56,999 bases of DNA from an uncultured archaeon (GTDB taxonomy: Archaea > Halobacteriota > Halobacteria > Halobacteriales > Haloferacaceae), in contig CAKZPG010000045.1 in NCBI GenBank assembly GCA_937138675.1, positions 1 through 56,999 on the forward strand. The letters run 5' to 3'. Positions 48,158 to 51,110 of the stretch are shown here, piece after piece (within the stretch, counting starts at the first letter, position 1; every line of letters starts with the position of its first letter). Under the pieces are notes generated by a model, which saw nothing but the letters and a program-made list of their open reading frames with translations, was not told the DNA's origin and made no database searches. A program made the translations under genes and the position numbers.

Positions 48158-50197
48158 ATGATCCTCTCGGACGCTGATATCCTCGCCCGACTGGAGACGG
48201 GCGACCTCCGGATCGACCCACTCTCCGACCTGGAGCTACAGGTGCAGCCGGCGAGTGTCGACCTGCGCCTCGGCACCGAGTTCTTAGAGTTCCAGCGTGC
48301 GAATATCTCCTGTATCCACCCAAACCGTGCCGACGAGGTCGATGAGTACGTCGAGTCGACCCACGTCTCCGAAGGCGATGAGTTCGTTCTCCACCCCGGC
48401 GACTTCGTCCTTGGCTCGACGAAAGAGCGTGTCGCGGTGCCAGACGACCTCGTCGCCCACGTTGAGGGTCGGTCGTCGCTCGGGCGTCTCGCGGTCGTCA
48501 TCCACGCGTCGCTCCCCACCGACGAGGAGGTGTTTCTGTGGACGCCCGACGAAGGATTCGGGTTCTACGAGATCGGTGACATCGTCGAGAACGAGCGCTC
48601 GGCGCGTGCGGTGTCGTTCGACCCGCAGACGCTGCGCGTCCGGACGCACCGGGTGTCGGACCACATCCGGAACCCAACAAAACGGATCTACCGAGTGACC
48701 CTCGAATCCGGCCGAGAGGTGTCTGTCACGAGAGACCACAACCTGTTCACGCTGGACGAGTACGGAGGCGTCACCCGAATCGCGAGCGAAGACGCCGAAG
48801 GAACGCTCGTGATGGTTCCCGACAGGCTTCCGGAGCCGAGCGCACCACAGACAGAGATCGACCTGGTCGAACTGTTCGGCCCGGACGACGACGACATCAC
48901 GGTCTTCGCTGCCGACGGACTCGGCGAGGTCGACTGGTCAGACGTTTCGAACGGGGTGCGCCGACACTACGAAGGGCAATCGAGCGCGCCGATGAGCGCG
49001 ACGCGCCCATCTTCGCTCCCGTCGGCGGCGGAGATGGCGTTCAAGGAGAGCGATGTTCGCCTCCCCCGAACCCTCCCGGTCACGACGGACCTCGCGTGGG
49101 CGCTCGGGTTCTACGTCGCCGAGGGGTACCGGCGGCGAAAGCAGATCGTGGTGAGTAACACGGACCGGGAGTATCTCGAACGGTTCGCGTCGGTCTTCGA
49201 GCCGAGTGGAGCCGGGTGTTCGTGGTACGAGCGTGACAACGGTGTTACGACCCTCACGGTCTGCTCGGCGCTCTGGTCGAAGGTGTTCGGTGAACTCGCC
49301 GGCGAGGGATCGGAGAAGACCGTGCCAGCACAGGCCTGGGACTGGTCGAACGAGGTGTTGACGGCGCTGTACGAGGGCCTGATCGACGGCGACGGACACC
49401 GCCGCGAGGGGCGGGACACGCTGTACACGGCTAACGGCGACCTCGTGAGCCGCGCGATGTTTCTCGGCGCTCGACTCGGTCTGTTGAACTCGGTCTACCA
49501 CCGCGAGCGCGAACAGTACATCGAGATGAGCGACGTGAGCAACGAGGGCGCGGAGTGGGCGGTAGATTTCAGCGAGAGCGGCCACAAGCGCGGGCAGTAC
49601 GTCCCGACACCGAGCGCACTTCTCAGGCGGTACCGCGACCGTGCGGCGCTCACCATGGCCGACGCGGCTGCGGAGATGGGGTACTCGTCGCCGAGCAGCG
49701 TCGCGAACGTCGAGAACGAAGAGTGGCGGTCGACCAACCGCGAGACGCTCCGTCGATTCCGTGATCTCTACCTCGACTACGACGTCGACACGACGAGACT
49801 CGATCAGATACTCGACAGCGACGTACGGTTCGAGCGGGTCGAATCGGTCGAGACGACCGACCGTGTAGAGCCGACGTACGACCTCGAGGTCCAGCCCAAC
49901 GGTCGAGCCGTCGAGAACTTCATCGGTGGACGTGGCGGCGTCTTCCTCTCGAACACCGCCGGTCTGTGCGACCCCGGGTATCAGGGACAGATCACACTCG
50001 AACTCTCCAACCTCGGCACCGCACCCGTCGCTCTCACGCCCGGGATGCGCATTAGCCAGGTTACGTTCACTCGGCTTTCCTCGCCCGCCAAGCGGCCGTA
50101 TGGTACGGAACGCGGATCGAAGTATCAGGGCCAGACCGGACCGCAAGCCTCGCGCATCGGGTCGGACCCAGAGTTCGCGGAGCGCCGGGAGGAGTGA
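48158..50197 (+). CDS. dcd: dCTP deaminase, precursor with intein
   Basis: A 679-residue precursor. Removing the intein leaves a 197-residue dCTP deaminase, the usual archaeal length. Extein motifs are the nucleotide-binding [12 protein letters not shown] (about residues 31-42), phosphate-binding [15 protein letters not shown], then directly [19 protein letters not shown] with the catalytic Glu. It deaminates dCTP to dUTP for dTMP synthesis. The intein interrupts between VVIHA and TAGL, inside the active site, so splicing is needed for activity. The start ATG ([10 protein letters not shown]) is the canonical one. It is followed two bases later by the thiR-like gene. Confidence 0.94.
48509..49954 (+). 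other. Intein in dcd with LAGLIDADG endonuclease and HTH
   Basis: A 482-residue intein starting with Ser ([16 protein letters not shown]) and ending GVFLSN before Thr of the C-extein. Splicing block B is VTRDHNLF (residues 73-80). Two LAGLIDADG-type motifs are LGFYVAEGY (199-207) and [10 protein letters not shown] (287-296), both with their acidic residue. Block F is [16 protein letters not shown] (456-471). An XRE-like helix-turn-helix occupies about 374-425 ([20 protein letters not shown] onwards). The penultimate His usual in inteins is Ser and the first residue Ser rather than Cys; the +1 Thr is normal. It may splice slowly and may home as an endonuclease. Confidence 0.92.
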
Positions 50198-50198
50198 G

Positions 50199-51110
50199 AT
50201 GAAGTTCGTCGAGGAGGTGGTGGTAGAGGAGTTCCTCCCGACCTACCGCTCGATGCTCGCGGCGGCGCTCAGAGAGCGCGGCCTGACACAGCAGGAGGTG
50301 GCGGCGGCGCTTGGCCTTAGCCAGTCCGCGGTGTCGAAATACGCGCAGGGTGGGGTGGCGCGGACCTCGGCAGTCAAGGAGGACGATCGCGTGCGCGAAC
50401 TGGTCGACCGTGTCGCCGATGGCTTGGCGAGCGGCGAGATAAGCCGCGTTCAAGCGCTCGCGGAGACCGAGGTGGTGATCCGTCGCCTCGCCGACGGGGA
50501 CGTCCTCGCACGCCTCCACGAGGAGGCGATGCCCGACCTCGCAGAGGCCGGGGGGCTCGACCTCCAGGACCCAGAGGGGGTCGTCCTCACGACGGAGCGT
50601 GTCCGTTCGTCAGTCGGGCGGGCGCTCCGGGCACTCACGGCCGCAAGCGGGTTCGCGTTGCTTGTCCCCGACGTGGGCTCGAACGTCGTCGAGTGCCTGC
50701 CCGACGCGCGCGGTATCGAGGACGTGGCGGGCGTCCCCGGGCGCATCGTCGACGTGAAGGGGCGACCGAAAGTCCCGGCCGATCCCGAGTTTGGCGTGAG
50801 CGCCCACGTCGCACAGGTGTTACTCGCGGCCCGCGCCGGCGAGTCGTCCGCCCGCGCCGCCGTGAATATACGGTACGACCCGACGTACGTCGAGACGCTC
50901 CGGGAAACGGGGCTTCAGATGTTCGAGTTCGACCCCGAGGCCGACCGCGAGGGTCCTGATAGTGCCGTCCGGGTGGCGCTGGCGGACCAGTCGACTGGCG
51001 ATCAGTTCGCGCTCTTCCAGACCGGCGCGGTCGGCGTCGAACCCATCATCTACGTTCTCGGGTCGGATGCCCCGACCGTCGTCCGGACGGTGCGCGACGC
51101 CCTCCTCTGA
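50199..51110 (+). CDS. ThiR-like transcriptional regulator (HTH plus ThiN domain)
   Basis: A 303-residue protein. The N-terminal helix-turn-helix is RGLTQQEVAAALGLSQSAVS (about residues 27-46). The C-terminal half is a ThiN domain (VVIRRLADGDVL, then GFALLVPDVGSNVVECLPDA, ADPEFGVSAHVAQVLLAARA and IIYVLGSDAPTVV). ThiN in other proteins acts in thiamine phosphate synthesis; fused to an HTH it forms the archaeal thiamine regulator ThiR, known to repress thiamine genes. No thiamine gene is adjacent here. It starts one base after the dcd stop. Confidence 0.87.
   Translation: MKFVEEVVVEEFLPTYRSMLAAALRERGLTQQEVAAALGLSQSAVSKYAQGGVARTSAVKEDDRVRELVDRVADGLASGEISRVQALAETEVVIRRLADGDVLARLHEEAMPDLAEAGGLDLQDPEGVVLTTERVRSSVGRALRALTAASGFALLVPDVGSNVVECLPDARGIEDVAGVPGRIVDVKGRPKVPADPEFGVSAHVAQVLLAARAGESSARAAVNIRYDPTYVETLRETGLQMFEFDPEADREGPDSAVRVALADQSTGDQFALFQTGAVGVEPIIYVLGSDAPTVVRTVRDALL

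Follow-up and report, generated by a model that had tools for sequence, protein, structure and literature searches.

The window, a 56,999-nucleotide stretch of DNA from an uncultured haloarchaeon, carries an open reading frame on its forward strand (48158-50197, +) that encodes 679 amino acids followed by a stop codon. Pfam profiles matched this frame to DCD (1.9e-44), Intein_splicing (6.3e-16), LAGLIDADG_3 (8e-8) and HTH_31 (3e-6). The NCBIfam profile TIGR02274 (3.7e-63) aligned in two stretches that correspond to both extein halves, which places the host protein in the dCTP deaminase (Dcd) family. Alignment with intein-free Dcd set the boundaries of the intein at residues 118-599 of the frame, i.e., 482 amino acids inserted in phase, with the junctions VIHA/SLPTDEE upstream and GVFLSN/TAGLCDPG downstream (Table 1). 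The insertion point falls in a conserved segment of Dcd, with RSSLGR on one side and ITLELSN on the other. Judging from the alignment ranges, Dcd residue 117, the last of the N-extein, aligns with residue 113 of 2qxx, the M. tuberculosis enzyme. A sequence-only reading of the locus had proposed a dCTP deaminase split by a large intein, and the splicing-domain, LAGLIDADG_3 and HTH_31 matches bear this out together with the intein-free relatives: the 482 residues are absent from their uninterrupted Dcd and so do not belong to the enzyme family itself. Directly downstream, the gene at 50199-51110 starts with an ATG one base past the dcd stop and is possibly co-transcribed with dcd; its product has its own N-terminal XRE-like helix-turn-helix (HTH).

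Table 1. Features of the intein-bearing dcd gene, in window coordinates
Feature	Coordinates	Strand	Evidence
N-extein, dCTP deaminase residues 1-117 (to ...[13 protein letters not shown])	48158..48508	+	TIGR02274/PF22769
Intein, 482 aa, Ser1...Asn482	48509..49954	+	Alignment with intein-free Dcd; PF14890 6.3e-16
Asn55, at the 'NX' histidine position of Ser1/Thr+1 inteins	48671..48673	+	Profile alignment to 5o9i (SRHP vs itNP) and 2cw7; invariant in family
Splicing block [10 protein letters not shown] (Thr74, His77)	48725..48751	+	Thr74 and His77 invariant, 33 rows / 27 distinct
LAGLIDADG motif 1, LGFYVAEG, intein 199-206, catalytic Glu205	49103..49126	+	Alignment; PF14528
LAGLIDADG motif 2, GLIDGDG, intein 290-296, catalytic Asp293	49376..49396	+	Alignment; PF14528 at 400-452
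Cro/C1-type HTH accessory domain, between endonuclease and C-terminal splicing block	49604..49816	+	HTH_31 in 22/22 members; helices 369-436
Splicing block F (TYDLEV...ENF), Asp458 = F:4, Glu469 = F:13	49874..49921	+	Alignment; same Glu in PI-TkoII and 5o9i
Splicing block G, GVFLSN, Ser481 (penultimate), Asn482	49937..49954	+	Both residues invariant in all homologues
C-extein from Thr+1 (TAGLCDPG...ITLELSN...) and stop codon	49955..50197	+	Family profile; alignment with intein-free loci

A scan of the genome collection returned 28 loci, 11 of which encode the intein (two incompletely), the others being intein-free dcd genes. Of the 394 sampled genomes of Halobacteria, 24 (the window genome among them) have an intein-bearing dcd of full length with no internal stop, and seven family groups are represented among these. 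After duplicate removal, 27 distinct Halobacteria dcd inteins were retained, and the 26 others are 55-81% identical to the window's intein. All homologues found are inserted at one fixed site, between ...HA and TAG..., and intein-free loci run straight through it as ...VHATAG... or ...IHATAG.... The recurrence of 27 distinct homologues at an identical site, without stops, and the uninterrupted Dcd of intein-free relatives rule out a chance insertion. The comparison with intein-free dcd alleles of relatives, which the sequence-only reading had called for, thus yielded the uninterrupted site, including in a close pair: Halovenus salina carries the intein and Halovenus aranensis is intein-free, and their exteins share 96% identity at the protein level and 89% at the DNA level. 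Outside Halobacteria, one copy (L104) emerged when 295 genomes of the phylum were searched by profile; it occupies the same site, has the same motifs and comes from a genome classed only by its shared phylum. That genome is small, at 1.2 Mb. Searches for viral, phage and plasmid carriers of the dcd intein found none.

In the intein tree, the window's intein groups with those of L012 and L032 at 100/100, and L012 pairs with the window's intein at a weak support of 87/64. Between L012 and L032, the exteins hardly differ (dN 0.017, dS 0.37; clade support 98/94), but their inteins have diverged, with a dS of about 1.0-1.3. The intein and extein trees disagree in places, which, together with the patchy distribution, supports horizontal movement of the dcd intein. 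The sequence-only reading saw two intact LAGLIDADG motifs in the intein, and both catalytic acids, E205 and D293, are indeed in place; E205 is kept in all members but L010/L053, which are one allele, and D/E293 in all members. Fold matches of the intein were to inteins that contain a homing endonuclease and to I-DmoI. The endonuclease would cut dcd alleles that lack the intein, at the conserved nucleotide-binding segment; repair of the cut allele would then copy the intein into it.

Between the endonuclease and the C-terminal splicing part, HTH_31 matched 22 of 22 aligned family members. When the whole precursor was modeled with AlphaFold2, the exteins came out poorly (mean pLDDT 63). The intein was therefore modeled alone (mean pLDDT 87, pTM 0.86), and this model has five helices at intein residues 369-436, close to the range of 374-425 first assigned to an XRE-like HTH from the sequence. 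The HTH sequence alone matched nothing meaningful in the PDB (best E 0.2). HTHs occur at the same place, just before block F, in haloarchaeal inteins (e.g., L060-L090) whose flanking extein sequence we read as that of cdc21/MCM. The HTH of the dcd intein is therefore not special but a common accessory part in haloarchaeal inteins.

One allele, L010 (also L053; Halovenus sp. B1Sed10_238R1), points to the role of this domain. Its endonuclease is dead, with the first acid changed from Glu to Ala and the second motif reading DGGG. At columns that are otherwise invariant, L010 is changed at 0 of 60 splicing positions, at 9 of 31 endonuclease positions (Fisher p 2.6e-5) and at 3 of 13 HTH positions (p 0.005), with an unchanged extein identity to its neighbors (0.86 vs 0.86). 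When other members were left out in turn, they mostly showed no such pattern, the nearest being L052, on a deep branch. As judged from this one allele, in which the HTH decays with the endonuclease while the splicing residues stay intact, the HTH is most likely part of the homing module, and it would add DNA contacts for homing. The earlier suggestion that the HTH aids DNA-site recognition for homing is thus probably right. Its contribution need not be simple: in TliVMA, the full intein bound DNA less well once its accessory domain was removed, and an alternative cut site was lost; the HTH-like domain had added that site rather than overall specificity (PMC8966425). One could also picture the excised intein as a transcriptional (auto)regulator of dcd, instead of or besides a homing aid, as the Cro/C1-type fold comes with a conserved recognition-helix segment. 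We regard this as very improbable given the joint decay in L010, the same-place HTHs of the cdc21/MCM inteins and the accessory domains of PI-TkoII and TliVMA, which likewise resemble HTH DNA-binding proteins (PMC8966425).

The splicing residues assign the dcd inteins to class 1. Ser1, the block B Thr-x-x-His (Thr74, His77), the block F Asp (Asp458) and the C-terminal Asn482 are invariant in all rows (33 rows, 27 distinct inteins), as are Glu469 and Ser481, and Thr+1 follows the intein in all homologues. After translation, Ser1 would attack the upstream bond, Thr+1 would take over the N-extein, and cyclization of Asn482 would leave the Dcd halves ligated, as these conserved residues suggest. 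What had been read from the window as a first Ser, a Ser in place of the penultimate His and a following Thr holds as Ser1, Ser481 and Thr+1. The penultimate His (G:6) is common but not obligatory in class 1 inteins; here it is replaced by Ser in 27 of 27 distinct Halobacteria inteins and in the outlier outside the class. About 5% of functional inteins carry another residue than His at this position, which in class 2 inteins is always Ser (PMC4031507).

A second histidine is also missing. Cysteine-less Ser1/Ser(Thr)+1 inteins have as their signature the highly conserved 'NX' histidine, which follows Arg or Lys; two of the 58 examined depart from it (PMC10189870). An ungapped local alignment with 5o9i and the alignment with PI-TkoII (2cw7) place Asn55 at this position, and the 27-intein alignment shows it to be invariant and usually preceded by Thr. 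We rejected His52 as the NX histidine, as it varies (Y/H/F) and fails to align there. Glu at F:13 was likewise dropped from the oddities, since the Mvu TFIIB intein and PI-TkoII carry it too; for a Ser1 intein it is nothing out of the ordinary. On these alignments, the dcd inteins lack both histidines that comparable inteins usually keep, with Asn55 and Ser481 in their stead, so that the remaining His77, Thr74, Asp458 and Glu469 would have to suffice. We tentatively propose, at somewhat less than even confidence, that they form a natural Ser1/Thr+1 variant that does without the NX and penultimate histidines and uses Asn55, Ser481 and Glu469, an undescribed arrangement for oxyester splicing. 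That a Ser1/Thr+1 family has lost two assisting histidines is the one point that deserves specialist attention.

The window genome (1.86 Mb, 80.6% complete) is intein-rich, with inteins on contigs C104, C62, C4, C3 and C60. Apart from the dcd intein, it has 12 C-terminal intein matches to TIGR01443. These twelve mostly end in HN; L093 is one that ends in SN. Four intein matches lie in a single 2685-aa frame of C4 and three in a 2070-aa frame of C104; a further intein (L002) lies in what looks like a DNA polymerase II large subunit. For thymidylate synthesis, the window genome has ThyX (Thy1, 1.2e-60; C78:7695-8372) and no ThyA match; a Haloferax volcanii control gave ThyA and no ThyX match.

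Could the atypical residues mean that splicing has been lost, leaving a dead intein in a pseudogene? Apart from the residues themselves, this would fit the failure of the C-terminal model TIGR01443 to detect the dcd intein at E<=1e-3, although it lists the 12 others of the same genome. However, exteins and splicing blocks evolve under strong constraint (low dN/dS), the homologues are free of stops, and no other copy of dcd was found. Twelve other genomes with the intein, each with a listed completeness of 98% or more and several in 1-4 contigs, were checked for an intein-free dcd; it was absent from all 12, and none was found in the window genome, whose 80.6% completeness makes the exclusion of a second copy less firm there. 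Where these 12 genomes have a second TIGR02274 match, it is weaker, below the cutoff and elsewhere in the genome; the window genome follows the same pattern, and its second match overlaps a dUTPase match. With no intein-free dcd, the precursor must splice for Dcd to exist. Splicing of the dcd precursor thus almost certainly works, and a dead intein is extremely improbable.

The sequence-only reading had further suggested that the penultimate Ser slows splicing and that Dcd activity, hence thymidylate supply, is tied to it. In its full form, the weakened active site would make splicing conditional, for example on salt, and so gate Dcd. The absence of the two usually assisting histidines (Asn55, Ser481) is compatible with this, as is a single-copy Dcd in the window genome alongside ThyX and a separate dUTPase. 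Nevertheless, every homologue carries these same residues, which is what a family adapted to them would show, and inteins without the penultimate His do splice, some very fast (PMC4031507). The patchy horizontal spread and the maintained endonuclease fit a selfish element, and most relatives lack the dcd intein altogether. Family-wide fixation of Ser, its occurrence among functional inteins and the lack of an intein-free dcd leave the first suggestion without support, and nothing links Dcd activity to splicing as a regulator. Slow or regulated splicing is thus unsupported, and we judge a regulatory intein improbable.

A dcd intein has been reported before. Soucy et al. (2014; PMC4071816) name two genes of Halobacteria as newly invaded, one of them 'dtd' (deoxycytidine triphosphate deaminase), whose allele comprises six halobacterial sequences, is monophyletic and was found nowhere else. 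The window's intein shares its host gene, class and horizontal distribution; the present set comprises 27 distinct sequences from Halobacteria, plus a genome from outside the class. The passages on the dtd allele make no mention of the HTH or the splice residues, and literature searches for the dcd intein under other names returned nothing relevant. We file the window's intein under this allele by host gene and class, and we infer that the insertion site is the same. Altogether, we conclude with high confidence that it belongs to the published halobacterial dtd allele and is a mobile, full-size intein of class 1 (Ser1/Thr+1, oxyester), residing in a single-copy dcd. Already reported in 2014, and with an HTH that is a common accessory part and unusual splice residues common to all relatives found, the dcd intein is largely ordinary. 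Its main value is as a clear-cut case of a nucleotide-metabolism gene, present in a single copy, that hosts a mobile intein. The new points are modest: the occurrence outside Halobacteria, the decay of the HTH with the endonuclease, and a family splice site without two histidines regarded as important in cysteine-less inteins. The family could serve to probe, with manageable effort, what part of the cysteine-less intein chemistry is dispensable.

Among known systems, the nearest folds to the intein model are PI-TkoII (E 1.3e-25) and TliVMA (6.2e-20). PI-TkoII (PDB 2cw7), the intein of a Thermococcus PolB, is the best fold match (TMq 0.71) and shares Ser1, Glu at F:13 (ENF) and an HTH-like accessory domain. 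Unlike the dcd intein, it keeps both the NX histidine (IRH) and the penultimate His, and it is only 19% identical and sits in another host gene. TliVMA (PDB 7qss; PMC8966425) has the same order of parts, with Hint, LAGLIDADG and an HTH-like domain between the endonuclease and the C-terminal splicing part, but its host is a V-ATPase subunit, its identity is 16%, and the effect of its accessory domain on cleavage sites has been shown experimentally. The Mvu TFIIB mini-intein (PDB 5o9i) offers a close C-terminal splicing motif (ENFIAGFGG...N) and an alignable N-terminal splicing region, whereas it has no endonuclease and retains the NX and penultimate histidines. The haloarchaeal cdc21/MCM inteins combine LAGLIDADG with a Cro/C1-type HTH just before block F, yet they occupy another host gene and end in a canonical ...HNF...VVHN C-terminus.
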